Program-made: the position numbers and the translations under genes
In this document: positions 8,556 to 48,860 of the stretch, in pieces
Numbering within the stretch: position 1 is the first letter of the stretch
Layout: each line of letters begins with the position of its first letter
Notes under the pieces: generated by a model
What the model saw: the letters and a program-made list of their open reading frames with translations, nothing else
Told to the model about the DNA's origin: nothing
Databases searched by the model: none
Assembly: GCF_000172975.1 (NCBI RefSeq)
Contig: NZ_ABTR02000001.1
Span: 1,216,501-1,280,500, forward strand
Reading direction: 5' to 3'
DNA from: Dethiosulfovibrio peptidovorans DSM 11002
GTDB taxonomy: Bacteria > Synergistota > Synergistia > Synergistales > Dethiosulfovibrionaceae
DNA: 64,000 nucleotides

Positions 8556-8561
8556 GCCGTC

Positions 8562-10733
8562 ATGAAAAGAAAATATCTGTTGTGCGCGATTCCGGGGCTG
8601 CCCTTAGCGGCGGCCCTGGCCGTTTGGATCGCCTCTTTCTCCGTAAGCCCGGTTACCGTTCGGGAGGTGGCCTCTCTGGATCGGTCTCCCCGGGTTGCCG
8701 ATCGGGACGGAGAGGTTTTGTGGGTGGGACTCACCTCGGAGGACAAACTCTGTCTGCCACTCTCTCTGGACGAGATGGGGAGGTGGTTGCCGTTGGTCTT
8801 GATAGAGGTGGAGGACCGACGTTTTCGAAAACACCACGGAGTGGACTGGCTCGGTCTGGTTCGGGCCGCGGTCCAGAATGTCCGAAGCGGCGGCATCGTC
8901 TCGGGAGGTTCCACGATAACCAGCCAGCTGATAAGGATGGCAAGGCCCAGGGAAAGGACCTTTTCCGCCAAGGCCAGGGAGTTCCTCCAGGCCATCGACC
9001 TGGAGCGTAGGCTATCCAAGGACGGGATACTGGAGATGTATCTGAATCGGGCTCCTTTTGGAGGAGTCCTTCAAGGAGCCGGGGCCGCCTCTCTCGGATG
9101 GTGGGGAAAATCTCCGAAGGACCTCTCCCTGGCAGAGGCCGCCGTCTTGGTGGCCATGTTGAAGGGCCCCACCAGATACCGCCCCGACCTCCATCCCGAG
9201 AGGCTTCGAACCAGGAGAGACCGTATACTGAGGGATCTGGGCAAGAGAGGGGTCGTCTCGGAAGAGGCGGTTATTCTGGCCATGGAGGAACCCCTGCCCG
9301 GGAATATCTCCATTCCTGATCGGGATTTCCTGTTCGTGTCGAAGGTGTTGGAGGAGTCCCCCGAAGGGGGCCGGTCCACCCTGGATCGAAAGGTTCAGCT
9401 TCTCCTGGAGGAAGCTATATCATCGGCCTTGAGGGGGATGTCCAGGAAGGTGACCGCGGCGGCGGCCCTGGTCGACAACCGAGACGGTTCCGTCAGAGGC
9501 TACGTGGGGAACGGTCGGTTCGACCAGGACAGATCCTGGAGCTGGGTGGACTGTTGCGATTCTCCCCGTTCTCCCGGGTCCACCCTGAAGCCCTTCGTCT
9601 ACGCCATGGCCTTTGAGGGGGGGCAGCTGTCTCCGTCGTCCTTGATGGCGGATACCCCTCTGTCCTTGTCCGGCAGGGCGCCCAGAAACTTCGATCTTCG
9701 CTATCGTGGCCCGGTCTCCGCCTCCGACGCCTTGGCGGACTCGCTGAACGTTCCGGCAGTGAGGGTCCTCAGGTCCGTCGGGGCGGAGCGTTTCCTCCAT
9801 CGTCTCAGGACGTTGGGATTCTCCCTTTTGAGGGAGGACGGCGATCACTACGGCGACTCTTTGATTCTCGGAGGATGCGAGGTTACCTTGCTGGAACTTC
9901 TGAGGGCTTTCTCGACCCTGGCGACCTGTCGAAGCCGTCCTCTGTCCTTTCTGGAGGGGACGGGAGGGGCTCGATGGGAGGATTGTCCTTTTTCCGACGA
10001 GAGCTCCTTCCTAGTGGGGGAAATACTCCGGGATTCGGACAGACTCTCCCCTTATCTGAGATCCCTCCTGTCCGGTAAGGCGGAGATAGCCTTCAAGACC
10101 GGGACCTCCTACGGATTCAGGGATGCCTGGGCTGTAGCCTGGAACGAGAGTTGGACCCTCGCAGTGTGGTTCGGAGATCCCGAGGGCACGCCTCATCCCG
10201 AGCTGGTGGGCCTTTCCGCCTCTGTCCCGGTCGTCGTAGAGGTGATGTCCAGGTTGGGAGGGACCATGCCCCTCCCTCCAGCGGGGGTGTCCAGGCGGAC
10301 CGTCTGTTCTCTCTCCGGGCTGCCTCTCAACTCGGCCTGTCCATCCGGAGAGGAGGCCTGGTATATCCCGGGTGTCTCGCCGGAAAGCCCCTGCGACATG
10401 CACCGCTGGACCGGCGGAAAATCGGTCACGGTTCTCCCTCCGGAGCTGGCGGCCTGGGGAAGGGCTAGGGAGACCTCCTTGACCATCGTCTCTCCTCTGG
10501 ACGGGGCGGAGTATCTCATGCCCCCTCTGGGAGAGCCTCCGAGGATCCCCCTTTCCTGCGAGGGGGCGTCGGGAAAGGTCTCCTGGTTCGTCGACGGGCT
10601 TCACCTGGGAACGGTCCCGGAGGGAAGAAGACTTTTCTGGTCTATCTCGGAGGGGCGGCACAGGATATCGGCGGTGGACGAAAAGGGCAGGAGCGACAGG
10701 GCGGTCGTGAAGGTAACACCCTGGGGTAGATAG
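8562..10733 (+). CDS. pbpC: penicillin-binding protein 1C (transglycosylase/transpeptidase)
   Basis: This 723-residue protein has an N-terminal membrane anchor (about 5-25). A GT51 glycosyltransferase domain follows, with the EDRRFxxHxGVD motif near 83 and a GGSTITSQL motif near 115. The transpeptidase domain has SxxK (S340, in GSTLK), SxN (S394-L-N396) and KTG (K512). The C-terminal region of about 120 residues matches the BiPBP_C extension typical of PBP1C. It polymerises and cross-links peptidoglycan in the periplasm. It follows the A2M gene directly, and the pair is thought to repair and guard the wall after protease breach. No separate promoter is visible. Confidence 0.93.
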   Translation: MKRKYLLCAIPGLPLAAALAVWIASFSVSPVTVREVASLDRSPRVADRDGEVLWVGLTSEDKLCLPLSLDEMGRWLPLVLIEVEDRRFRKHHGVDWLGLVRAAVQNVRSGGIVSGGSTITSQLIRMARPRERTFSAKAREFLQAIDLERRLSKDGILEMYLNRAPFGGVLQGAGAASLGWWGKSPKDLSLAEAAVLVAMLKGPTRYRPDLHPERLRTRRDRILRDLGKRGVVSEEAVILAMEEPLPGNISIPDRDFLFVSKVLEESPEGGRSTLDRKVQLLLEEAISSALRGMSRKVTAAAALVDNRDGSVRGYVGNGRFDQDRSWSWVDCCDSPRSPGSTLKPFVYAMAFEGGQLSPSSLMADTPLSLSGRAPRNFDLRYRGPVSASDALADSLNVPAVRVLRSVGAERFLHRLRTLGFSLLREDGDHYGDSLILGGCEVTLLELLRAFSTLATCRSRPLSFLEGTGGARWEDCPFSDESSFLVGEILRDSDRLSPYLRSLLSGKAEIAFKTGTSYGFRDAWAVAWNESWTLAVWFGDPEGTPHPELVGLSASVPVVVEVMSRLGGTMPLPPAGVSRRTVCSLSGLPLNSACPSGEEAWYIPGVSPESPCDMHRWTGGKSVTVLPPELAAWGRARETSLTIVSPLDGAEYLMPPLGEPPRIPLSCEGASGKVSWFVDGLHLGTVPEGRRLFWSISEGRHRISAVDEKGRSDRAVVKVTPWGR

Positions 10734-36831: not shown

Positions 36832-38211
36832 TTAGGAGAACTCCCCTTCTCTCCATCTCATGGAGCCGGAGAAGTAGTCGTTTTTGAGTTTTTTGATCTC
36901 CGGAGTGAGGGTCAGAAGGCCGATCATGTTGGGAATTATCACCATGGCCAGCAGTATGTCCAGAACGTAGAAGAGGGACGACAGCCCTCCCAGGGCTCCC
37001 CAAAAGATGGCGGCGACGTAGACGGTCCTCATAAAGAGGCTGAATCGATAACCGAATAGGAATTCGGCCTGTTTTTCTCCGTAGTACACCAGGGTTATTA
37101 TGGTCGATATTACGAAAAGGGTCAGGGATATGGATATGGCCGTCGAGCCTATTTTGTCGCCGAAGACGGAGGAGAACGCATAGAGAGGCATGGTGGCCGC
37201 GTCCTTCGCCGGCAAGGCGGTCCAGGCTCCGGACACTATTATGGCCAGTCCCGTTACGGTGCATATTATCATAGTGTCGGCCACGATCTCGAATATGCCC
37301 CAGCAGGCCTGTCTACAGGGATGGTCGGTCACGGCGGTGCTGTGGGCTATCGGAGCGGTTCCCATTCCGGCCTCGTTGGAGTAGGTCCCTCTGGCTATTC
37401 CCCATCGCAGCGTCGCTATTATCCCGGCACCGCCGAATCCGCCTATCGAGGCGGTAGGGGTGAAGGCCGAACGGAATATCAGCGACAGGGCCTCGGGTAT
37501 CTCGGACAGGTTGACCGCCAGCACCATCAGGGCGCCGATTATAAAGCATACGGCCATGGCTGGCACCATGATCTCGGCCACCTTCCCTATCCTGGTGATC
37601 CCTCCGAAGACGACCAGTCCCACCAGCACGGCCAGTACCGTCCCGGCTGCTATGCTTGATACTCCCAACTCGTTAACCGATCGAACCACCGAAAGGGACT
37701 GGGTGGCTATGGACGGTATGATCTCCAGCATCAGACAGAAGGAGAATGTCAGGCTGAGCCATCTGCCGATCCTTCCTCCGACGCCTTTCTTCAGGTAGTA
37801 CATAGGACCTCCGACGAACTCTCCTCTGGCGTTTTTCTCCCTGTAATGGACTCCCAGGGCTATCTCGGAGAATTTGGATGCACAGCCTATGGCCGCTACT
37901 ACCCACATCCAAAAGATCGCCCCCGGGCCACCGAAGGCCACTGCCACCGATACCCCTATTATGTTGGCCGCTCCGACCGTCGAGGCCAGGGCCGCAGTAG
38001 TGGCCTGAAACGGCGATATAGTTCCCTCTCCGTCCCTTTTGGAGGAGAAGATCTTTCCGAAAGTCTCCCTCAGTATCCTGCCGCAGTACTTGAACTGAAA
38101 GAAGCCGAGGGAGACCGTCAGCCAGACGCCCCCTCCGAACAGGAGTATCCGCATGGGCCATCCCCAAAGCCAGTTGGACAAGGCGGATATGAGTTCGTTA
38201 AACCCCATCAT
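36832..38211 (-). CDS. sodium:alanine symporter (AGCS family)
   Basis: This 459-residue protein has about ten hydrophobic segments and AGCS signatures: GGPMYYLKKGVG near 138, the GTYSNEAGMGTAPIAH stretch near 274-289, and SKFSEIALGVHYRE near 112. It imports alanine, glycine or a related amino acid with Na+. The promoter at 38251-38279 is near-consensus, so it is transcribed alone. It stops about 160 bases before the amidohydrolase gene in convergent orientation. Confidence 0.9.
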   Translation of the reverse strand: MMGFNELISALSNWLWGWPMRILLFGGGVWLTVSLGFFQFKYCGRILRETFGKIFSSKRDGEGTISPFQATTAALASTVGAANIIGVSVAVAFGGPGAIFWMWVVAAIGCASKFSEIALGVHYREKNARGEFVGGPMYYLKKGVGGRIGRWLSLTFSFCLMLEIIPSIATQSLSVVRSVNELGVSSIAAGTVLAVLVGLVVFGGITRIGKVAEIMVPAMAVCFIIGALMVLAVNLSEIPEALSLIFRSAFTPTASIGGFGGAGIIATLRWGIARGTYSNEAGMGTAPIAHSTAVTDHPCRQACWGIFEIVADTMIICTVTGLAIIVSGAWTALPAKDAATMPLYAFSSVFGDKIGSTAISISLTLFVISTIITLVYYGEKQAEFLFGYRFSLFMRTVYVAAIFWGALGGLSSLFYVLDILLAMVIIPNMIGLLTLTPEIKKLKNDYFSGSMRWREGEFS

Positions 38212-38402: not shown

Positions 38403-39200
38403 TCAAAACACCGCCAGATCGGCATCCTTGGGGTCCAGTATCATCATGTGTCCCGGGGCGTGGGTTATCGCGAAGGGAGGTTTGCTGGCCATCAGCGCCG
38501 CCTGGGGCGTCACGCCGCATCCCCAGAAGACCGGGACCTCGCCGGGACGGATCGTGACCGAGTCGCCGAAGTCGGGTTTGGAAATGTCCTTTATCCCTAT
38601 CGCCTCAGGGTCTCCTACGTGAACCGGGGCTCCGTGTACTCCCGGGAAGCGCCCTGTGCACAGAACCGCCTTGGGAACCTGTCTCGCCGGGATGGGCCTC
38701 ATGCTGACCACCATAGGCCCAGACAGCCGACCGGCCGGACTGCACTTCATGGAGGTAATGTACATGGGAACGTTGCGGTTTTCCTCGATGTGCCTTATCG
38801 GAATATTCGCCTCCATGAGGGCGCTCTCGAAGGAGAAGGAGCAGCCTAGGAGGAAGCCGACCAGGTCGTCTCGCCAGTAGGAGCTTACGTCGGTGGGCTC
38901 GTCGATATTGACGCCGTTTTCCCAGACCACGTATCTCGGAATATCCCTGGATATGTCCGAGCCGGGGGCCATTATCCTGGCCTCGGTGTCGCCCGGTTCG
39001 GTGATGTCCAGTATGGGGCAGGGGGTCGGGTTTCTCTGGGCGAAGACGAGGAAGTCGTAGGCCCAGTCCTTGGGGAGGACTATCAGATTGGCCTGAACCC
39101 TTCCCTTGCACATTCCCGGGGTGGGCTTGGTCCATTCCCCTCTTCTGATTATCTCCCTGACCTCTTGGGGCGTAGATCCGCCGTAGTCCGTGGCTTTCAT
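38403..39200 (-). CDS. DUF1445/YcsI family protein (putative hydro-lyase)
   Basis: This 265-residue protein carries the YcsI-family patterns: [17 protein letters not shown] near 27-43, [10 protein letters not shown] near 114, and the [12 protein letters not shown] stretch near 228. Related proteins are annotated as hydro-lyases; a D-glutamate cyclase domain is known in a eukaryotic relative, which would link it to 5-oxoproline. It is the last gene of the operon, and its start overlaps the end of pxpA. In B. subtilis ycsI is in the same operon type (ycsF-ycsG-ycsI-kipI-kipA). Confidence 0.87.
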
Positions 39201-39970
39201 AGTTTCAGCACCTCCCTGAGATTGGCTATCTCTATTCCCTCCGCCTCCAGCGTATTTCTGAGCTCTCTGGACATCTCCACCGCCTCGGCGGTGTCGCCGT
39301 GTAGACAGATCGACTGGGGGCGAAGCTCTATATCCTCTCCGGACAGGGTGGTGACGATGCCCTCTTTTATCATCCTGACCACCCTGGACGCCGCTTCGTC
39401 GGAGTCGTGTATGACCGCTCCCTCCATGCTCCTGGGGACGAGGGTCCCGTCGGCCATGTAGGCTCGATCCGCGAAGGCCTCCGAAGCGAAGGGAACGCCC
39501 GTTTCCTCCGCCGCCTTCTGGAACAGCGATCCCGACAGCCCCATGAGGATCAGGTTATCCCCTCCGTCCTTCACGGCACCGGCTATGGCCCTGGCCATCT
39601 CTAGGTCCTTGGCCGCGGTATTGTACATGGCTCCGTGGGGTTTGACGTGCTGTAGCGAGGTTCCCGTAGCCCTACAGGCTGCGGAAAGGGCCCCTATCTG
39701 GTAGAGACAGTCGGCGTAGACCTGGTCGGGGGTACACTTCAGGTTTCTCCGTCCAAACCCGACCAGGTCGGGGTAGCCCGGATGGGCCCCTATGGCGACG
39801 CCTCTGGACGAGGCCATTTTCACCGTCTCGACCATGACCGACGGGTCTCCTGCGTGAAAGCCGCAGGCCACGTTGGCGGAGGAGACGCTTTCCAGGACCT
39901 GGCCGTCCTTTCCCATGGTGTAGGCGCCGAAGCTCTCGCCCAGATCACTGTTCAGATCTATCTTGTACAT
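39197..39970 (-). CDS. pxpA: 5-oxoprolinase subunit A (LamB/YcsF family)
   Basis: This 257-residue cytoplasmic protein starts with the family signature [12 protein letters not shown]. It has [13 protein letters not shown] near 29-41, GAHPGYPD near 57-64, and [10 protein letters not shown] near 105-114. With PxpB and PxpC it forms the ATP-dependent prokaryotic 5-oxoprolinase that turns 5-oxoproline into glutamate. All three subunits are encoded here in the order B, C, A. It overlaps the DUF1445 gene by four bases and follows pxpC by 16 bases. Confidence 0.93.
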
Positions 39971-39986
39971 CTACGTCATGCCTCCT

Positions 39987-41051
39987 CTAGATTTTCTCCC
40001 ATTGGACCTCGTAGGTTTCGCCGTCGACGGTGATGCGACATTGTCCCTCCGTCGTCGGTTCGGACCGTTCCCTTTCGTCTCTCGTCGGATCGGCTATCCA
40101 GCCTTCAAGGGCCAGTCTGAGGGACTCCAGTCGACCCTTTTCCTCCCTGGCCTCGATTATGGCCTGATCCTGGCTCATGGCGGAGAAACGTACCGGTTGT
40201 CCCGGGAGCCTCTGGGCAAGCCTTGCCACCGAGTTGGCCGTGAGGACCGCTATCTTCGTATAGCCTCCAGTGGTTTGTCTGTCCGCCATCATTACGATCG
40301 GTTGACCGTGTCCCGGAACCTGAACCGCCCCGAGACATATGGCGTCGGAGACTATGTCCGCACCGTCGACGTGTTCTATGGTCGGTCCCTCCATGCGGTA
40401 GCCCATTCGGTCCGCCGCGGCGGAGACGACGTATTCCTCGGATAGGAAGGTCTTTATTCCCTCGTCGGTGAAGAGATCGTCCTGAGGGCCGGGTACCACG
40501 TCCATCGGTCGGGAGGGGGAATAGTCCGGCCTGAGTTCTTCGGGGCATACGAAGCCGACGCACCTCTCCCCTAGGATGTAGGGAGAGCCTGTGTCCAGCT
40601 CGTCTCCGGCCTTGAGGGCTCTGCCCTGGAGGCCGCCTATCTTTCCCCTCAGGTAGGTGGAGCGGCTTCCCATGAGAGGCGGCACGTCTATTCCTCCGGA
40701 GACGCATAGATAGCCTCTGCACAGGCCGTCCTTCATCCCGGAGAAGGAGACAACGTCGCCGTCCTTTACCGCGACGGTCGTCCAGGGTTGTACGTGGGTT
40801 CCGTTGACCGTCATGCCCAGGTCTCCTCCGGCGAGAGCCACGATTCCACTTCCTTGAACCGAGAGCTTTGGGCCCACGACGGTTATCTCCAGGGCGGCAG
40901 CCCCTGGGTCGTTGTGGACCATGATGTTTCCTCTGCGAAGCGCCATGGGATCCATCGCTCCCGCTACGGGCATCCCTATGGCCTGATGTCCCCATCTGCC
41001 CAGGTCCTGCACGGTGGTCAATATGCCTGGAGATCGGACGAGCAGCTTCAT
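39987..41051 (-). CDS. pxpC: 5-oxoprolinase subunit C (KipA/AHS2 family)
   Basis: This 354-residue protein has the AHS2 pattern: PGILTTVQDLGRWGHQAIGM near 8-27, GAMDPMALRRGN near 31-42, and the GHGQPIVMMADRQTTGGY stretch near 257-274. It forms the oxoprolinase complex with PxpA and PxpB. In B. subtilis the homologue KipA counters the kinase inhibitor KipI. Its start overlaps the end of pxpB by four bases (ATGA type). Confidence 0.92.
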   Translation of the reverse strand: MKLLVRSPGILTTVQDLGRWGHQAIGMPVAGAMDPMALRRGNIMVHNDPGAAALEITVVGPKLSVQGSGIVALAGGDLGMTVNGTHVQPWTTVAVKDGDVVSFSGMKDGLCRGYLCVSGGIDVPPLMGSRSTYLRGKIGGLQGRALKAGDELDTGSPYILGERCVGFVCPEELRPDYSPSRPMDVVPGPQDDLFTDEGIKTFLSEEYVVSAAADRMGYRMEGPTIEHVDGADIVSDAICLGAVQVPGHGQPIVMMADRQTTGGYTKIAVLTANSVARLAQRLPGQPVRFSAMSQDQAIIEAREEKGRLESLRLALEGWIADPTRDERERSEPTTEGQCRITVDGETYEVQWEKI

Positions 41052-41791
41052 AGTGTCCCATCTCCTTTCTCGACTATCTCCAGCTCGTAGGCGTTTTTAA
41101 TCGCCTTTTCCCTGATGTCCAGATATTCGTCCTCCCCGACCGGGCGGAATCGAATCCAGAGCCCTGCTTCGAGAAGGGTGGCGGGTTCTCTGGCCGGGTC
41201 GTACATCACCAGGGGTGTGCGCCCTATAAGCTGCCAGCCTCCGGGGCTGTCTATTGGGTAGATCCCGGTCTGCTTGCCCGCTATGCCGACGCTGCCCGCC
41301 GGTATCAGCTCTCTGGGGGTCTCCAGTCTGGGGGTGGCTATGGATTCGTCCATTCCTCCCAGATAGGAGAATCCGGGGGTGAAGCCCAGCATGTAGCAGT
41401 AGCAGCTGTTGGAGCAGTGACGGTGTATGACCTCTTCCTCGGATATCCCGTGGTATCTCGCCACCGATTCCAGATCCGGTCCGTATTCGCCGCCGTAGCA
41501 TACCGGAATGATAGCCTCTTTGGATCCTATCTTGACTTGCTCGTCTATCGATCCAATCCCGGCCGATATTTCCTCTCGAAGCCTGTCCAGGTCCGTCTCC
41601 ACAGGGTCGAAGTAGACGGCCAGTGATCGATATGTGGGCATTAGCTCCATGATGCCGGGAACGGGACGGGCCTCCAGTCTGGATCTAAGAGCCTGTACCT
41701 TGGCGTTTATCTCCAGGGCTATGGCGTTTCCGAAATCGACGACCAGGCAGGAATCTCCGGCTGGCCGTATCCTTGGTTCTATCTCGTTCAT
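41048..41791 (-). CDS. pxpB: 5-oxoprolinase subunit B (KipI/AHS1 family)
   Basis: This 247-residue protein has the AHS1 signature: CYGGEYGPDLESVA near 97-110, then YMLGFTPGFSYLGGMDE near 132-148, ATPRLETPRELIPAGSVG and SPGGWQLIGRTP. It pairs with PxpC in the oxoprolinase. In B. subtilis, KipI also inhibits the sporulation kinase KinA, which is not expected to apply here. A hairpin (41816-41840) lies between it and the upstream NRAMP gene and may tune expression within the operon. Confidence 0.92.
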   Translation of the reverse strand: MNEIEPRIRPAGDSCLVVDFGNAIALEINAKVQALRSRLEARPVPGIMELMPTYRSLAVYFDPVETDLDRLREEISAGIGSIDEQVKIGSKEAIIPVCYGGEYGPDLESVARYHGISEEEVIHRHCSNSCYCYMLGFTPGFSYLGGMDESIATPRLETPRELIPAGSVGIAGKQTGIYPIDSPGGWQLIGRTPLVMYDPAREPATLLEAGLWIRFRPVGEDEYLDIREKAIKNAYELEIVEKGDGTL

Positions 41792-41872: not shown

Positions 41873-43096
41873 TCAGGAGAACAGCGCCATGATCTTGCTC
41901 AGGGATTTGACTCCCATCCACATGGTGAAGGCAGCCATGACGTAGCCTATGATGGACATCCACATGGGGTGTCTGTAGTTTCCGACGATGTCCTTTCTGT
42001 GGGCCGCTAGAAGCACCGATATCAGGGCCAGAGGCAGTATAAGCCCGTTGATCGATCCGGCGAAGATCAGCAGAGCCACCGGTTTGCCTATCGTAGCGAG
42101 TATTGCGGTGGAGAAAACTATAAACCCTATCATCCAGGCCCTGTAGTGATCTCCTACCGATTTGAAAAGCGTTCTGAGGAAGGATATGGACGTGTAGGAG
42201 GCACCTATGACAGAGGTGACCCCGGCGGCCCAGAGGATTACCCCGAAGATCTTGTAGCCCAGGTCTCCCGCTCCAATCTGGAAGGCCGATGCGGGGGGAT
42301 TGGTCGGGTCGAGGGGGTGCCCCATCATGACGACTCCCAGGATCGCCAGGAAGAGGAGGAACCTCATGACTCCGGTTATGGCTACGGCGTTGATGGACCC
42401 CTTGCTTATGGCGCCGATGTTTTCCTCTCCGGTGAGGCCGGCGTCTATTATCCTGTGGGCTCCGGCGAAGGAGATGTATCCTCCGACGGTTCCTCCGACA
42501 AGTGTGAGGACGATCATCCAGTCGATATGGGAGGGTAGCACGGCCTCTTTAAGGGCGGCTCCTACCGGAGGCTGGGTCTTGAAAACCATGAACAGCACCA
42601 TGGCTATCATCACGAAGCCCAAAATCTGGGTGAACTTGTCCATGGCGTTGCCCATCTCCTTGCGGAGGAAAATGAATATTGCTATGAGGGCGCTGATCGT
42701 CGCTCCGACCGGTATGGGAAGGCCGGTCAGGACGTTGACTCCCATGGCCGCCCCTCCTACGTTGCCTATGTTGAAAACCAGACCGCCTAGGGCTACAGCG
42801 AAGGCTATGAAATATCCTAGGCCCGGAAGCACCTTGTTCGCCACGTCCTGGGCCCTCATTCCCGATACCGCCAGTATCCTCCAGATGTTCATCTGGACCA
42901 CTATATCGATCAGCACCGACGCCAGTATGGCGAAGGCGAAGGCCAGCTGCATCTTCTCCGTAAAAACCGCCGTCTGGGTCAGGAATCCCGGACCTATGGC
43001 GGATGTGGCCATTAAGAAGGCCGCTCCCATCAGCACGCTTAAAGTGCTGCCCTGTTTCGCCTTTTCGTCTCCTAAAGTGATCTTTTCCGTGGACAT
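41873..43096 (-). CDS. NRAMP-family transporter (YcsG-like)
   Basis: This protein of about 407 residues has 11 or so hydrophobic segments and a family pattern GPGFLTQTA near 34-42. The ATG at 43096 is preferred because GGAGGT is eight bases ahead of it; the open frame continues 64 codons further without good signals. NRAMP proteins move divalent metals, but the YcsG branch in kip/pxp operons is separate and may carry another solute, such as an oxoproline-linked one (inference). It is the first gene of the operon behind a sigma-54-type promoter. Confidence 0.85.
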   Translation of the reverse strand: MSTEKITLGDEKAKQGSTLSVLMGAAFLMATSAIGPGFLTQTAVFTEKMQLAFAFAILASVLIDIVVQMNIWRILAVSGMRAQDVANKVLPGLGYFIAFAVALGGLVFNIGNVGGAAMGVNVLTGLPIPVGATISALIAIFIFLRKEMGNAMDKFTQILGFVMIAMVLFMVFKTQPPVGAALKEAVLPSHIDWMIVLTLVGGTVGGYISFAGAHRIIDAGLTGEENIGAISKGSINAVAITGVMRFLLFLAILGVVMMGHPLDPTNPPASAFQIGAGDLGYKIFGVILWAAGVTSVIGASYTSISFLRTLFKSVGDHYRAWMIGFIVFSTAILATIGKPVALLIFAGSINGLILPLALISVLLAAHRKDIVGNYRHPMWMSIIGYVMAAFTMWMGVKSLSKIMALFS

Positions 43097-43142
43097 AAAA
43101 GCACCTCCGATATAAAGATGATGGCTCTCTATGGAGGTATAA

Positions 43143-43157
43143 GCAAGAAAGTTGCCA
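43143..43157 (-). promoter_or_regulatory. sigma-54 (-24/-12) promoter for the NRAMP/pxp operon
   Basis: On the minus strand TGGCAACTTTCTTGC has the GG of -24 and the GC of -12 exactly ten bases apart. It agrees with TGGCA-N6-TTGC, differing from consensus mainly in the CG after TGGCA. The predicted transcript starts near 43131, about 35 bases before the start codon and its GGAGGT site. rpoN and an NtrC-type activator gene lie directly upstream on the same strand. Confidence 0.7.
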
Positions 43158-43263
43158 ATTACTATTTTTTTCTCAAGATGAAAAAATGCGGCTATTTCAG
43201 CGTTTGTGCTGTCTTCTACTTTTTGTGCCCGAAGTCCGTTCGACTCGAGTGGGTGCGAAAAGC

Positions 43264-43298
43264 GCACCTGACCGTGCGGTTTGCGCACGGTCAGGTGC
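43264..43298. promoter_or_regulatory. perfect 15-bp inverted repeat: enhancer site candidate and/or rpoN terminator
   Basis: GCACCTGACCGTGCG and its exact complement are separated by five bases. The centre lies about 150 bases upstream of the predicted sigma-54 start site, a typical distance for an NtrC-type activator site. It also lies about 40 bases past the rpoN stop, and on the minus strand is followed by GCTTTTC, so it may terminate the rpoN operon. Both roles are possible together. Confidence 0.55.
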
Positions 43299-43338
43299 TG
43301 TGGTCAGGTGGATTTGTCGCTGTTTGCTCCAGCCTGTC

Positions 43339-44514
43339 CTATCTTCGTCTCTGTCTATGCCATGTTATCGTCCTTCTCGGTACTCCCAGGTTTCGAGACA
43401 GCTCCGAGTCGGACATTCCCTTTCTACTCGCCTCCTCTATCCTCGACCTCAGCTGTGCTACCGACATGTCCGGACGGGATTTCAGAGGACGGCTGAAGAG
43501 ACGGTCCATAGGCACGGTTCCCACCGGGGTCACAGCCCAGGTGGTTGAGGCGATTCTCTGCACCGTGGAAACCGATCTATTCAGTTTTTCGGCCATCTCC
43601 GTCATGGTCATAGGATAAGGGGCCCCTTCCCGGGACATCAGGTAGTCTTTCTGTTTTTTCGCCACCTCGATGGCCAGGGATAGTTTGGATGCGTTCCTCC
43701 TGGCTATGGATTGGATTATGTGAAGTCCTCTGCCCTTCATGGATGTCACTCTGTCGTCCTCCCAGGTCAGAGGGGTCATGTATATCCTGGGGAGGTTCTC
43801 GGCCAGGACGACCGCAGGTCTGTCGGGGTCGGGATAGAGCTCCAGCTCTGGGATTACGACCTGTGCCGTCGTGCGGCGACCCGGGGCTGGGTCGAGGTGC
43901 GATAGTTCTTCCATGGCCCGGTCAAATCTGCTTCGACTCCATCCAAGCCTCTCCATAGCATCTTTGGGGTCTCCCTTTCCCAGCAGGTCCACCGCCATCT
44001 CAAGGATCTTCGCCCCGTCCGACTCTTCTTTTCCCGATCTGATCAGTTGCAGCGACAGACAATGGATCAGATCTCTTGCGAACAGTCCAGGGGGTTCTAC
44101 TATATCCCTGACTCTCTCCAGCAGGAGGTCGAGCCTCTCTGCGGTCAGCTCCAGCTGGTCGGCAATGGCCTCCTGGGTGTCGGTCAGGTAGCCTCTGTGA
44201 TCTAGGTAGCGGACCAGTTCATACGGCAGTGAGTCCCTTTCCTCCCGAAGGGGACGACACTGGGCCATCTGACGGATAAGGTTTTCCTCCAGGGACGGCT
44301 CTTCCGAGAGGTCGTCCAGTATACCCGATTCCTGCCACGATCGGGGAGGGTTCACCTCGTAGAGGGGGTTGTCGGCCAGTTCGCCTATAGCTGTGTCCAC
44401 TAGCTCCTGTACCGGCATGGTCAGTAGCCTGAGGTTTTGGATAAGGACGGGTAGGTGGAGCAGCTCGGTCCTTACCTGCTGGGTCAGTCTCGGCGAGGGG
44501 TCAATCCAGGCCAT
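43339..44514 (-). CDS. rpoN: RNA polymerase sigma-54 factor
   Basis: This 391-residue protein has the region I start (PRLTQQVRTELLHLPVLIQN, about 8-27). An acidic region follows (SEEPSLEENLI), then the core-binding domain (about 80-210) and the DNA-binding part with a helix-turn-helix (YPMTMTEMAEKLNRSVSTVQR near 302-322). The RpoN box reads PRRTITWHR near the C terminus, against the usual ARRTVAKYR. It is shorter than the roughly 480 residues of enterobacterial RpoN, mainly in region II. Its start overlaps the NtrC-type gene by 14 bases, so sigma factor and activator are made together. Confidence 0.93.
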   Translation of the reverse strand: MAWIDPSPRLTQQVRTELLHLPVLIQNLRLLTMPVQELVDTAIGELADNPLYEVNPPRSWQESGILDDLSEEPSLEENLIRQMAQCRPLREERDSLPYELVRYLDHRGYLTDTQEAIADQLELTAERLDLLLERVRDIVEPPGLFARDLIHCLSLQLIRSGKEESDGAKILEMAVDLLGKGDPKDAMERLGWSRSRFDRAMEELSHLDPAPGRRTTAQVVIPELELYPDPDRPAVVLAENLPRIYMTPLTWEDDRVTSMKGRGLHIIQSIARRNASKLSLAIEVAKKQKDYLMSREGAPYPMTMTEMAEKLNRSVSTVQRIASTTWAVTPVGTVPMDRLFSRPLKSRPDMSVAQLRSRIEEASRKGMSDSELSRNLGVPRRTITWHRQRRR

Positions 44515-45856
44515 GTTTCTGAAGTCGCCTCAAAAGGGCGTATCGAGACAGTCCCAGAGAGGAGGCCGCCCTGGTCCTGTTGCCCCCCGAGTCGGACAGC
44601 GCCTGTGTCAGAAGCTCTTTTTCAAAGTCGTCCAGCTGTCGTTGAAGGGGCCTGCCGTCGGTCTCGTGCCTCGATTCGGACTCCCTGTCGGTGGGCATGG
44701 CGTCCAGCATCTCCTGGGGAAGGTCCTTCAGAGATATGGTGCGGTCCCTCTGGTCCTTTAGTATGAAGAGACGCTCCACCAGGTTCTTGAGCTCCCTGAC
44801 GTTTCCGGGCCATCTGTAGGACAGAAAGACTTCCTCCACGTCGGAGGAGGGAATCAGAGGCGGCCGCCCGAGTCTGTCGCTGTACAGAACTATGAAGTGT
44901 TCCAGGAGTTCCAGAGCGTCTCTGCCTCGTTCCCTCAGAGGGGGGAGCTCTATGGGGAGCATGGCTATCCTATAGTACAGGTCTTTTCTGAAGGCTCCGG
45001 AGGATATCCTGTCCTCCAGGTTTGCGCAGGTGGCGCATACCACCCTCAGGGATACCTGGATTTCCCTGGAGGATCCCAGAGGCCTGAGGGACCGAGAGTC
45101 CAGAAAGCGAAGCATCTTGCTCTGGAGAGAGGTCGGCATGTCTCCTATTTCGTCCAGAAAGAGGGTGCCTCCGTCGGCCAGCTCCACTAGTCCTCTCTTG
45201 TCGGTGGAAGCCCCGGTGTAGGCTCCTTTTCTAGACCCGAACAGTTCGGCTTCCAGAAGACTTTCCGGTATGGCGGCGCAGTTTATGGCGACGAACTCGC
45301 CGGAGCTTCCCGAGGCGCCGTGGATCATCCTGGCCACGACCTCCTTCCCAGTGCCGCTTTCTCCCCTTATCAGGACGTTGACGTCTTCGTGTCTCGAGAC
45401 TTTTTCGACGAAGCCTCCTATCTCTTTTACCGCCCGGGACGAGCCTATCAGGGAGACCGCCCGGGACGTCTCCATTCGGGAGACCCGTCTGGCAAGGGCT
45501 ATTGCCTCCGACGCCCTTTGGGCCATGTTCATGGCTGCCTCCAGAGGGAAGGGCTTGTCCAGATAGTTGAAGGCCCCCTCCCTTATAGCTCGTACCACCA
45601 GGGCCGAGTCGCCGAAAGCTGTCATAACTATCACCTTGGCCTCCGGAGACGCTTGAAGTATGTGGGGAAGTCCCTTGAGACCGTCTCCGTCGTCGAGCCT
45701 GACGTCGAGGAAGACTATCTCCGGGGATTCCTGATCCATCATCGAGTTCAGCCCCTTGAGCCCCGATGCGGTGCGGGACTCGTAGCCCCTTCTCTCGAAG
45801 GCGGTTTTGAGCCCTTGAGCCAAGGCTCTTTCGTCCTCTATTATCCAGACTTTCAT
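44501..45856 (-). CDS. sigma-54-dependent response regulator (NtrC family)
   Basis: This 451-residue regulator has a receiver domain with phospho-acceptor D51 and K101. The AAA+ domain has Walker A GESGTGKE (165-172), the sigma-54 contact loop GAYTGA (211-216; Tyr in place of the common Phe), and Walker B LFLDE (232-236). A Fis-type helix-turn-helix sits at the C terminus (about 425-450). It should be phosphorylated by the kinase encoded immediately upstream (overlap of four bases). Likely targets are the NRAMP/pxp operon or the symporter of its own operon. Confidence 0.93.
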   Translation of the reverse strand: MKVWIIEDERALAQGLKTAFERRGYESRTASGLKGLNSMMDQESPEIVFLDVRLDDGDGLKGLPHILQASPEAKVIVMTAFGDSALVVRAIREGAFNYLDKPFPLEAAMNMAQRASEAIALARRVSRMETSRAVSLIGSSRAVKEIGGFVEKVSRHEDVNVLIRGESGTGKEVVARMIHGASGSSGEFVAINCAAIPESLLEAELFGSRKGAYTGASTDKRGLVELADGGTLFLDEIGDMPTSLQSKMLRFLDSRSLRPLGSSREIQVSLRVVCATCANLEDRISSGAFRKDLYYRIAMLPIELPPLRERGRDALELLEHFIVLYSDRLGRPPLIPSSDVEEVFLSYRWPGNVRELKNLVERLFILKDQRDRTISLKDLPQEMLDAMPTDRESESRHETDGRPLQRQLDDFEKELLTQALSDSGGNRTRAASSLGLSRYALLRRLQKHGLD

Positions 45857-47106
45857 ATTTTATCCTCCTCGTTGTCCTTGCCGGCCGGACCGGGGAACCA
45901 GAGATCCAGTCTGGTGCCATCGGGGGATGTGTCCAGGTCCATGGTCCCTCGATGGTCCTCCACTATCCTGTAGACGACCGATAGGCCGAGCCCGGTGCCG
46001 TCCGGTTTCGAAGTCACGAAGGGGTCGAAGATCCTTTCTGCCACACGGTCCGGCACGCCGCCGCCGGTATCCTGGACGGACATAGACGTTCCGTCGCTGG
46101 ATCTACGGCATGAAACGTACAGATCTCCCTCTCCGTCCATGGCCTCTATGCCGTTCAACACAAGGTTCAACAGCAGCTGCTGCATCTGCCCTCTGTCTCC
46201 CCAAAGCACGGTGCCGTCGTCCACCGTTTCGTGCCAGCCGATGGATTTTCGGGAGAGTCGGACCCTCACCATACTGTGGCACCAACGGAAAAGCTCCCTG
46301 GGGTCTATCGGGCCCGGTACGGTCGGGGTAGGCCTGGCGAAGGATAGCAGCTGTGTCACCACACGGTTGAGCCTGTCCAGCTCCGAGCTGAGGACCTGTA
46401 GGGATTCTTCGTCCTCCGTCTCTCCGCTTCTTGCACCGCTCAACAGGTCCAGGTGGATCCTCATGGCAGCCAGGGGGTTCTTTATCTCGTGGGATACCCC
46501 GGCCACAACCTGTCCCAGGGCGGCCAGCCTCTCCATCCTGGAGATCCGACGCTCCAGGCTCTGCCTTTCCCTCAGGCCTCTGACCATTGCGTTGAACGCG
46601 TCCTGAAGTATCTCCAGTTCGTGGGATCCGGATCTCTCGACGGGGAGATCCGATAGATCCCCTCTGCCGACCTTGGCGCAACCCCAAGCCAGCCTCTTGA
46701 GGGGCCTCGTCAGCCAGTAGGCCAGAAATACGGCCATCTCCGCCGAGAGGAGCAGACATATCATTCCCGCCACCAGAAGGTGTCGTCGTCTGTGCAGTAT
46801 GGCGGTCAGGAGCTGTTTGCCGTTAAGGCTCACCTTCCAGCTCGCTCCGTCGGAGGTGGTCACGGAGGTGCCGTCTCCTTCGGAGGTTATTCGCCAGGCC
46901 TCTCCTTCTCTGTCTATGATCTCCATGACCTGTCGGGACGTCAGATCGCTCGATCGACTGGACAGCTCGTCTATCTTTCCCTGTTCGGACATGTAGGTTT
47001 CGTGAAAATCTATGGAGAGAGACATGGCTATCAGGACGACTGTGAGGCAGAAGGTCAGACCCGTTACGACTGCCTTTATCCTGGTCTCCAGATCGGGGCC
47101 TATCAT
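45853..47106 (-). CDS. sensor histidine kinase
   Basis: This kinase of about 417 residues has membrane segments at about 11-31 and 109-131 flanking a periplasmic sensor of about 75 residues. HAMP follows, then the dimerisation helix with phospho-acceptor H206 (in GVSHEIKNP). The ATP-binding domain has NLVLNGIEAM, DTGGGVP and GTGLGLSVV. The ATG at 47106 overlaps the stop of the symporter gene (ATGA), so it is coupled to it. Kinase, regulator, RpoN and symporter appear to be one operon, suggesting that the kinase senses the transported solute or its transport. Confidence 0.92.
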   Translation of the reverse strand: MIGPDLETRIKAVVTGLTFCLTVVLIAMSLSIDFHETYMSEQGKIDELSSRSSDLTSRQVMEIIDREGEAWRITSEGDGTSVTTSDGASWKVSLNGKQLLTAILHRRRHLLVAGMICLLLSAEMAVFLAYWLTRPLKRLAWGCAKVGRGDLSDLPVERSGSHELEILQDAFNAMVRGLRERQSLERRISRMERLAALGQVVAGVSHEIKNPLAAMRIHLDLLSGARSGETEDEESLQVLSSELDRLNRVVTQLLSFARPTPTVPGPIDPRELFRWCHSMVRVRLSRKSIGWHETVDDGTVLWGDRGQMQQLLLNLVLNGIEAMDGEGDLYVSCRRSSDGTSMSVQDTGGGVPDRVAERIFDPFVTSKPDGTGLGLSVVYRIVEDHRGTMDLDTSPDGTRLDLWFPGPAGKDNEEDKI

Positions 47107-48494
47107 TGTCTGGCTCCCAGGATCCACCATAGGATTCCCTCTATCAAGAGGGACGGAAGCATCGCCGTCTCGGGGGACATTCCGGAAAACCATACCAGGA
47201 GGTTGTAGACGATCAGGGCGGTGGACATGGCTCCGAACAGTCCTCCTCTGGCCTTAGTTCTGGGAAGGTACAGGGGAAGCAGAAAGCACAGTGCCACCAT
47301 GCTCCAGCTGTAGCGACCGAGTTGAAGTATCCCCGGAAGGGGCATATAGCTGAGAAACAGCGTCACGGTGGCTATTATAGCCACCGCTATCCTGTTCTTG
47401 AAGAGAAAACCGTCCTCTTCCAGGGGGTCTTTGGACGGTATGCGCCCCTCTCCCTGAAGGTCATAACAGAAAGAGCAAGCGGCAAGCAGCAGCTGGGAGT
47501 TGGCGGTGCTGACGGCGGCGGCGAGGACTCCCACCATCAACAGAGCCAGAGGAAGGGGCGAAAGGCCTGCCTCCATAAGACGGGAGAACAGTACCTCCTG
47601 AAATCCTCCGGTTACGAAGGGGTAAAGGGCCTTGGCTCCCAGCCCCAGGGCGGTGAGGCAGATGTAGATCCAGGACACGGTTAGAGAGGTTATCGCCAGG
47701 GTCAGCCAGGCGGTCCATCTGTCTTTGCAGGATATTATCCTTATGCAGTACTGAGGGTTGGCCGCCACCCCCAGTCCCCAACCCAGGGCCATCGTCATGG
47801 AGGCCAATATCCCCTCCTTCGGCCAGGGCTGGAGCAGCTCTGGCCTGAGGTCTAGCAGTCTCTCGTGTATGGAGGGAAAGCCTCCGGTCTGAGATGTTAT
47901 GCTCCAGGCCGCCACCGTGACGGAGAGCACTATTACCATGAGATTGAGGCCGTCGCTTCTTACAACCGACGGAAGGCCTCCAAAGGTGGTGTAGAGAACG
48001 AAGAGGTAGACCAGGATAGAGGCCATGAAGCCCTCTATGTCCAGCATGGATCCGACGATGGCTCCGAAGGCTCTAAACTGTATTATCAGATAGACCGTGT
48101 AGACCACCAGAAGACAGAGGGCCGACAGGGATCGGAGCCTGTCGTCCGAGTAACGCTCTTCCAGCCACTGAGGAAGGGACAGGGCCCGGCTCTTTCTCAG
48201 CCTTATCACCGCCAGAGGGAGCAGGGGAAGGCCCAGCATCCACCCTATGACCGATCCTGTGAATGCGGCGTATCCCTCCTGATACAGCAGCACCGTGTAG
48301 CCCAACAGTGACGCTGCGCTCATCCAGGTGGCTCCGAAGGTGCCCACAGAGGGCCAAAGGGCTATTTCTCTGCCTCCCAGGTAGAAGGATCGTCTAGTCT
48401 CGTTCCACTGGAAGGCTCGACCGGCCAGCAGGATGAGTGCCATTCCATAGCCTCCGAAGGCCACCAGCCGGTACAGAAGGGATTGCAGGGTCAT
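47103..48494 (-). CDS. sodium:solute symporter (SSS family) linked to a two-component system
   Basis: This protein of about 463 residues has about 13 hydrophobic segments and the SSS pattern (FYLGGREIALWPSVGTFGAT near 34-53, where the GG(R)xxxxW motif is typical). The start at 48494 overlaps the stop of the 38-codon upstream gene (ATGA). The open frame that continues upstream comes from the repeat element and is not coding. Its position beside a kinase and a sigma-54 regulator suggests regulated uptake of an organic acid or amino acid; the substrate is unknown. Confidence 0.87.
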   Translation of the reverse strand: MTLQSLLYRLVAFGGYGMALILLAGRAFQWNETRRSFYLGGREIALWPSVGTFGATWMSAASLLGYTVLLYQEGYAAFTGSVIGWMLGLPLLPLAVIRLRKSRALSLPQWLEERYSDDRLRSLSALCLLVVYTVYLIIQFRAFGAIVGSMLDIEGFMASILVYLFVLYTTFGGLPSVVRSDGLNLMVIVLSVTVAAWSITSQTGGFPSIHERLLDLRPELLQPWPKEGILASMTMALGWGLGVAANPQYCIRIISCKDRWTAWLTLAITSLTVSWIYICLTALGLGAKALYPFVTGGFQEVLFSRLMEAGLSPLPLALLMVGVLAAAVSTANSQLLLAACSFCYDLQGEGRIPSKDPLEEDGFLFKNRIAVAIIATVTLFLSYMPLPGILQLGRYSWSMVALCFLLPLYLPRTKARGGLFGAMSTALIVYNLLVWFSGMSPETAMLPSLLIEGILWWILGARQ

Positions 48495-48607
48495 CTCCCG
48501 TTTCTCCTGCGGCAATAGAGGTAGATCCAGGGTAGAGCTGCGAGGACCGCGAAGGCCCCCCATACCAGTAGATAGGGGCGACGGGACAGTGTCTGAGCGA
48601 AGAACAT
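48491..48607 (-). CDS. 38-residue single-span membrane protein, probable symporter small subunit
   Basis: An ATG at 48607 is preceded by GAGGAGGG at good spacing. The frame runs 38 codons and ends in TGA, overlapping the symporter ATG in an ATGA junction. The peptide has a basic N-terminal stretch (LSRRPY), one hydrophobic segment of about 18 residues (14-31), and a basic tail (CRRRNGR). Size, position and tight coupling mirror the 64-codon protein before the other sodium symporter at 33.8 kb. Confidence 0.65.
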   Translation of the reverse strand: MFFAQTLSRRPYLLVWGAFAVLAALPWIYLYCRRRNGR

Positions 48608-48653
48608 GGGCAGTTTCCCTCCTCTTCGGTAGTCCTGTCACTTTATCACAAGT

Positions 48654-48860
48654 CCTCGGCGAGGAGTCCGACGGGGCCCTGTCTCGCCCGAGCGTATTTT
48701 CGACCTGCCTGTTCCGAACGGACCGCCTCGGAGGGCACGTCCTGTGCCCCCTCGGCTTGGGGCGACGTCCTGTCGCCCCATCCATTTTACACGACGGCAG
48801 GTCGAAAATACGGGTTCGTCGGCCTCCTCACCGAGGAGGCTTGGATATGATTTTTTAGAG
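48654..48860 (+). repeat. structured dispersed repeat, copy 3
   Basis: Same orientation as copies 1 and 2, with the 52-nt core (48725-48776) identical. The second stem (CGTATTTTCGACC...GGTCGAAAATACG) is perfect. The outer stem (48654-48673 with 48817-48836) pairs at 18 of 20 positions although its sequence differs substantially from copies 1 and 2. The terminal GGGCATCTCTAAAAAC-type repeats are largely lost; only TTTTTTAGAGG near 48851-48861 recalls the right end. It lies between the symporter operon and the S9 peptidase gene. Confidence 0.85.

Follow-up and report, generated by a model that had tools for sequence, protein, structure and literature searches.

Sigma-54 (RpoN) is usually regarded as a shared factor that serves several activators. 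In systems of the NtrC, ZraR, AtoC, and DctD types, a -24/-12 promoter element is combined with inverted repeats about 100-200 bp upstream, and an adjacent sensor kinase accompanies an AAA+ response regulator with a GAFTGA-type loop and a Fis-type HTH. The NtrC consensus consists of the half-sites GCAC...GTGC. In the CbrA/CbrB system of Pseudomonas, an SSS-type transporter is linked to a kinase and to an NtrC-type sigma-54 activator. Sigma-54 regulation itself is known, and the RpoN/ManR mannose-PTS system of Lactobacillus plantarum is a partial precedent for the locus described here. The L. plantarum genome has one sigma-54 activator (Stevens et al. 2010, as cited by PMC3162934 and PMC4919987), and its sigma-54 regulon is small and centred on one transport function (PMC3162934).

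Operons for the use of 5-oxoproline have been described in Bacillus subtilis (ycsF-ycsG-ycsI-kipI-kipA-kipR), where the kip/pxp operon is under TnrA, KipR, AhrC, MntR, and CcpA (PMC10448178), and in Corynebacterium glutamicum, where pxpTABC is under the GntR-type repressor PxpR (PMC13274462). A paper of 2026 states that the regulation of the pathway had not been studied before (PMC13274462). C. glutamicum requires the NRAMP-like protein PxpT to grow on 5-oxoproline (PMC13274462); in B. subtilis, by contrast, YcsG was reported to import manganese (PMC10448178). In the searched parts of three open papers on sigma-54 regulons (PMC12316311, PMC6615313, and PMC3162934), Synergistota are not mentioned, and the searched parts of the first two do not mention oxoproline.

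In the present study, we examined positions 43143-43298 in a 64-kb stretch of DNA from Dethiosulfovibrio peptidovorans (the whole stretch is referred to as the window). Comparison with related genomes indicates that these positions very probably form the control region for a sigma-54 circuit that is self-contained and serves an oxoproline operon. The catabolic genes, including the NRAMP-like YcsG/PxpT, are common to the locus and to the operons of B. subtilis and C. glutamicum; however, those two operons are not controlled by sigma-54, unlike the control predicted here. An earlier note on this DNA had drawn the same contrast with B. subtilis, naming KipR and TnrA, and the contrast holds, as B. 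subtilis uses TnrA, KipR, and other regulators (PMC10448178).

With the NtrC-family systems, the locus shares the -24/-12 element, the inverted repeats at a similar distance, the AAA+ response regulator with its GAFTGA-type loop and Fis-type HTH, and the adjacent sensor kinase. Unlike in those systems, the sigma factor gene overlaps the activator gene and is inherited with it, the target is apparently a single operon, and the half-sites follow each other as GTGC...GCAC, opposite to the NtrC consensus. In CbrA, transporter and kinase are parts of one protein, whereas here they are separate genes accompanied by their own rpoN. In L. plantarum, rpoN (lp_0787) and manR (lp_0585) are not neighbours and the activator is of the PTS type; here rpoN and the activator gene are adjacent and the activator belongs to a two-component system.

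Methods

The NRAMP gene and the activator domain were each surveyed in 61 genomes of the order, and the sigma-54 DNA-binding domain was surveyed in 61 and then in 188 genomes. The cluster-type rpoN was found in 35 genomes (34 by Pfam, and G041 by direct comparison; genomes and loci are designated by G and L numbers, respectively). Subtracting the decayed cluster of G025 and the rearranged one of G017 left 33 clusters, which we treated as intact; that of G002 is split over two contigs. The pattern of the upstream site was derived from the window alone; thus, its test in the other loci is independent.

Results and discussion

Gene cluster

The first part of the cluster, on the minus strand, consists of a sodium:solute symporter gene (SSS; 47103-48785, PF00474), a sensor histidine kinase gene with a HAMP domain (45853-47193, assigned by domain search), an NtrC-type response regulator/sigma-54 activator gene (44501-45856), and a divergent, cluster-specific rpoN (43339-44514). 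The symporter ORF as listed probably starts too early, and relatives align from about residue 90. The earlier note had placed rpoN and the NtrC-type gene immediately next to each other. They are adjacent, as stated there, and overlap by 14 bp (8-14 bp in most loci), and the kinase and regulator genes overlap by a few bases; these overlaps suggest translational coupling. The symporter constantly accompanies the kinase, which suggests transport sensing, as in CbrA. A TwoAYGGAY RNA motif (RF01731, 61 bits) lies at 48679-48830 of the window on the minus strand, just upstream of the SSS-kinase-regulator-rpoN genes. Ten places were listed for this motif genome-wide, nine of them above the family cut-off, and the copy in the window is not among them.

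The second part, on the same strand, begins with the gene of an NRAMP-like transporter (YcsG/PxpT type; 41873-43096, PF01566), which is the first gene of the operon. It is followed by the genes of the 5-oxoprolinase subunits, pxpB (41048-41791, TIGR00370 above cut-off), pxpC (39987-41051, TIGR00724 above cut-off and PF02626), and pxpA (39197-39970, PRK05406 models and PF03746), and by that of a D-glutamate cyclase/DUF1445 family protein (YcsI type; 38403-39200, PF07286 and NF003969 above cut-off). A Na+/amino-acid (AGCS) symporter gene (36832-38211, minus strand, TIGR00835) is possibly the last gene of the operon; its membership is uncertain because it occupies the same place in G005 only.

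The pxpBCA genes encode 5-oxoprolinase. The NRAMP-like protein probably imports 5-oxoproline; we favour this role because residues other than those of the DPGN and MPH metal motifs occupy the aligned positions (set by eye) in 38 of 38 NRAMP-like sequences and because another transporter can take its place, as described below. The residues at these positions bear on the conflict between the published roles in 5-oxoproline and manganese import.

Promoter and upstream sites

From 43158 to 43141, the minus strand has the sequence TTGGCAACTTTCTTGCTT; its GG (43156-43155) and GC (43144-43143) are spaced exactly as GG-N10-GC. The predicted sigma-54 type -24/-12 promoter of the NRAMP/pxp operon, TTGGCAACTTTCTTGC (43143-43158, minus strand), would direct a start near 43131; the NRAMP-like gene has its start codon about 36 bp farther downstream. 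The exact form TTGGCA-N6-TTGC occurs once in the 64-kb window, at 43158-43143 on the minus strand, and RGCAACTTTNTTGC has a single copy in the D. peptidovorans genome, at the same promoter. The shorter pattern TGGCA-N6-TTGC occurs 14 times genome-wide versus 27 times for the reversed control, and the pattern alone is therefore not enriched beyond chance. We rejected the remaining 13 matches as members of a regulon, since none was clearly intergenic; three of the 14 represent one sequence, recognized by eye as 16S rRNA (L057), and 10 others overlap open reading frames. Thus, we take the site at 43143-43158 as real because it is conserved in relatives and not because of the pattern match alone.

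Farther upstream lies an extended perfect inverted repeat (43264-43298), whose 15-nt arms (43264-43278 and 43284-43298) are 100% complementary and enclose a 5-nt loop. The core of the repeat, GTGCGGTTTGCGCAC (43274-43288), is the first predicted activator-binding site (UAS); the second, GTGCGAAAAGCGCAC (43253-43267), is 21 bp away and nearer the promoter. These are the only two exact copies of GTGCG-N5-CGCAC in the 2.58-Mb genome. Centred about 150 and 129 bp upstream of position 43131, where transcription is predicted to start, and separated by 21 bp, which corresponds to two helical turns, the two predicted sites have the look of tandem activator sites. The UAS is also doubled in G001 and G005, and all nine exact UAS sites found genome-wide in the Dethiosulfovibrio genomes belong to this promoter, while chance copies occur in GC-richer relatives. 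We infer that GTGCG-N5-CGCAC is bound by the neighbouring NtrC-type regulator, because the HTH of the regulator is strongly conserved across loci and the genes are linked.

The earlier note had reported TGGCA-N6-TTGC with GG-N10-GC spacing before the NRAMP/pxp genes and a perfect 15-bp inverted repeat about 150 bases further upstream, and both were confirmed at the positions given above. Its view that the repeat is the site of an NtrC-type activator agrees with the placement and the conservation, but the site that we predict is the 15-bp core, which is present twice. The copy at 43253-43267 had been overlooked, and arms of 15 bp turned out to be specific to the genus.

Conservation in Synergistota

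The gene order SSS, kinase, regulator, rpoN, NRAMP, pxpB, pxpC, pxpA, and cyclase recurs in several families. The -24/-12 site is present in all 33 intact clusters and differs from TTGGCAACTTTTTTGC at 0-4 positions (shuffled sequences average 5.5-7 mismatches); some loci read AGCAAC, not GGCAAC, at -24. The exact GTGCG-N5-CGCAC is found in 23 of the 33 loci, 97-194 bp upstream of the predicted start, and the intact clusters contain 26 such sites against 0.015 expected. With up to one mismatch, the number of loci rises to 25 of 33 (0.27 sites expected). The exact UAS is missing in 10 of the 33 loci, and five loci have only related half-sites, as judged by eye. Thus, the comparison with relatives that the earlier note had proposed shows that several families of the order have kept both elements, correctly arranged and spaced, and that the elements track the presence of the rpoN and activator genes.

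The RpoN protein and its activator

The RpoN protein scored 99.8 bits with PF04963 and 55.3 bits with PF04552, both above cut-off, but only 142.9 bits with TIGR02395, whose curated cut-off for canonical RpoN is 277.35. Its profile matched sigma-54 sequences in the PDB at 5e-53, and its structural model aligned to a sigma-54 structure with a VIA-align Z score of 19.8 over 354 residues, at a high overall rmsd (15.9) and a pTM of 0.52. By its sigma-54 domains and its fold, the protein belongs to the RpoN family in the broad sense.

The Pfam scores across the phylum are bimodal, with 12 matches at 128-184 bits and 34 matches at 27-62 bits. The low-scoring proteins are all encoded in this cluster or in its remnants; of eight high-scoring proteins inspected, none is. 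In an unrooted tree of 41 sequences, the cluster RpoN is separated from the canonical RpoN of Synergistota with 100/100 support. Both types coexist in G143 and G150, but most genomes with the cluster encode one RpoN. The RpoN box is PRRTITWHR here and mostly P.RT(V/I/A)..(W/Y)H in the cluster proteins; it is (S/A)RRT(V/A)(A/T)KYR in the canonical RpoN of Synergistota and mostly ARRTVAKYR in the listed matches from other phyla, none of which has the cluster form. A pattern-based genome scan for the same RpoN outside Synergistota gave only Synergistota proteins above 30% identity. The listed matches from outside, at 22-29% identity, mostly have the canonical box, and very divergent members may be missed by such a scan.

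The activator has the receiver (PF00072), AAA+ (PF00158), and Fis HTH (PF02954) domains of a sigma-54 activator. Its loop is GAYTGA here and in most cluster loci, and GAFTGA or GS[YF]TG[AS] in a few. Among regulators encoded beside canonical RpoN, the loop was matched in four, and it is GAFTGA there. Mean pairwise identity is 37% for RpoN, 59% for the activator, and 75% for the NRAMP-like protein. RpoN is thus the least conserved protein of the cluster, a position that sigma factors do not usually hold.

Lost and rearranged clusters

The NRAMP-pxp genes occur without rpoN in 11 genomes, and none of these has the -24/-12 site upstream (0/11 versus 33/33; Fisher p = 1.3e-10, with the relatedness of the genomes ignored). 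Because the genomes are related, independent losses weigh more than the count. Loss of the -24/-12 element in relatives that keep the operon, which the earlier note had held to speak against the promoter, therefore does occur; however, all 11 operons without the site are also without rpoN, which supports the sigma-54 reading.

In the case of G025, whose genome is a single contig, the regulator and rpoN are in fragments, no sigma-54 activator domain was found, and the promoter site is damaged, with the GG lost (TTGATAACCTTCTTGC); the congeners G047 and G185 are fully intact. The symporter is also fragmented in this decaying cluster (L077, about 7188-9557 of the oriented locus), and NRAMP-pxp is present. 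In G006, another Dethiosulfovibrio, rpoN, the activator, NRAMP, and the UAS are all absent.

In six genomes (G001, G003, G004, G005, G150, and G151), 1.2-5.3 kb separate rpoN from NRAMP, and the UAS and the promoter stay with NRAMP. Among the inserts in other Dethiosulfovibrio genomes (L069, 6569-11574; L071, 7488-9694) are a large ORF, which encodes 1317 aa in G001, and another ORF that is response-regulator-like. In G027 and G187, NRAMP is replaced by three ORFs that resemble TRAP transporters by eye (L079, 9826-12846; L111, 9340-12442), and the UAS and the promoter are kept. The exception is G017 (L074 and L092), in which rpoN lies beside pxpB and the regulator lies on a separate contig; it has no NRAMP and no recognisable promoter site despite the presence of rpoN and the regulator.

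Target promoters

Cluster genomes have one strong activator match of about 200 bits, and eight have a second, weaker match (106-128 bits). The weaker match of the D. peptidovorans genome, at L097 (6513-7913, minus strand; G000:C1 near 501758), is a 466-aa AAA+ protein related to sigma-54 activators; seven further cluster genomes have similar weak matches, as does G046, which is without rpoN. We set aside this PF00158 protein as a second activator because its loop is GAYSGM, because no DNA-binding domain (HTH) was apparent by eye, and because of the similar match in G046. Most cluster genomes contain a single copy of RGCAACTTTNTTGC, and wherever the copy is single it lies at the cluster; G056 has two matches, and G017, G041, G047, and G059 have none in the exact form. 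A regulon of one operon in most such genomes is likely rather than proven.

We give about even weight to a broader proposal, according to which this fast-evolving, monophyletic sigma-54, found in Synergistota only, would be a private factor. It would be encoded in one polycistron with its only activator and serve one promoter, with the RpoN box, the GAYTGA loop, and the -24 element drifting together, and may be insulated from canonical RpoN. A competing and rather less probable view is that the circuit is real but that RpoN also serves further, looser promoters and is an ordinary, merely diverged sigma-54. Pattern searches catch close matches only, AGCAAC is already used at -24 in some clusters, and the second match in G056 could be read in the same way. 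This view fits less well with the single strong activator match of nearly every cluster genome, the one promoter match in most, the constant linkage to the operon, and the loss of the whole set together in G006 and G025.

It is very improbable that the operon is transcribed mainly by readthrough or from a sigma-70 promoter, with the -24/-12 site as a relic. The upstream operon does run in the same direction; however, the site is kept in every intact locus though RpoN averages only 37% identity, it is lost or damaged wherever rpoN is lost, and a sigma-70 scan of 43096-43300 on the minus strand reported no site. The interpretation already offered in the earlier note, a sigma-54 promoter with an NtrC-type upstream site, is the one that conservation and the co-occurrence of the regulator support, with the difference that the RpoN is not a standard one.

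Hairpin

Folded as RNA, the stretch with the inverted repeat is far more stable than its shuffled versions (z -5.8). The hairpin starts about 40 bp past the rpoN stop, and the minus-strand transcript then has GCUUUUCG; the T run is just four long in D. peptidovorans and shorter still in G002-G004. Long arms (12-18 bp) are confined to Dethiosulfovibrio; in other genera the arms are 5-8 bp and the T run is missing in nearly all cases, yet the core GTGCG-N5-CGCAC persists. Within the genus, the outer arms are 100% paired through three compensated positions and the core is invariant; the covariation score of the outer arms, calculated from six related sequences, was reached by none of 500 shuffles.

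We rejected, as scarcely credible, the idea that the palindrome is nothing but an intrinsic terminator of the rpoN operon at a coincidental distance from the promoter: its place after rpoN, its stability, the following GCUUUUCG on the rpoN transcript, and the compensatory changes expected of an RNA hairpin would agree with it, but a terminator scan did not list the hairpin at 43264-43298, doubling of the core at 20-21 bp does not belong to the features of a terminator, the short-armed repeats of other genera keep the core mostly without a T run, and the palindrome is still at the NRAMP promoter in G001, G003, G004, and G005, where rpoN is 3-5 kb off. A terminator role in addition to the predicted binding site is possible. 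We read the element as an invariant protein site within a hairpin, which may have taken on another function as well, for instance shielding the operon from readthrough.

Conclusions

In the circuit that we propose, the histidine kinase would phosphorylate the NtrC-type regulator, perhaps on a cue from the adjacent sodium:solute symporter. The phosphorylated regulator would bind both copies of GTGCG-N5-CGCAC, which are centred about 150 and 129 bp before the start. It would then reach, by looping, the RNA polymerase that sits with the divergent RpoN at the -24/-12 site, and spend ATP to open the promoter. The genes of the NRAMP-like importer, pxpBCA, and the D-glutamate cyclase would then be transcribed for the use of 5-oxoproline. 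RpoN, activator, and target would form one inherited unit, and the promoter is apparently the only target in most such genomes.

This predicted route is the first based on sigma-54 that we found for bacterial 5-oxoproline use in our literature comparison. The apparently dedicated, diverged sigma-54 is a stronger finding than the promoter and the repeat themselves. A sigma factor, an activator, a sensor, and a single promoter that appear to have been inherited, moved, and lost together offer a system for studying the co-evolution of sigma factor and activator. The cluster lets one ask which residues of the RpoN box and the GAFTGA loop carry specificity, and it raises the question of whether an insulated sigma-54 channel can coexist with the normal one.
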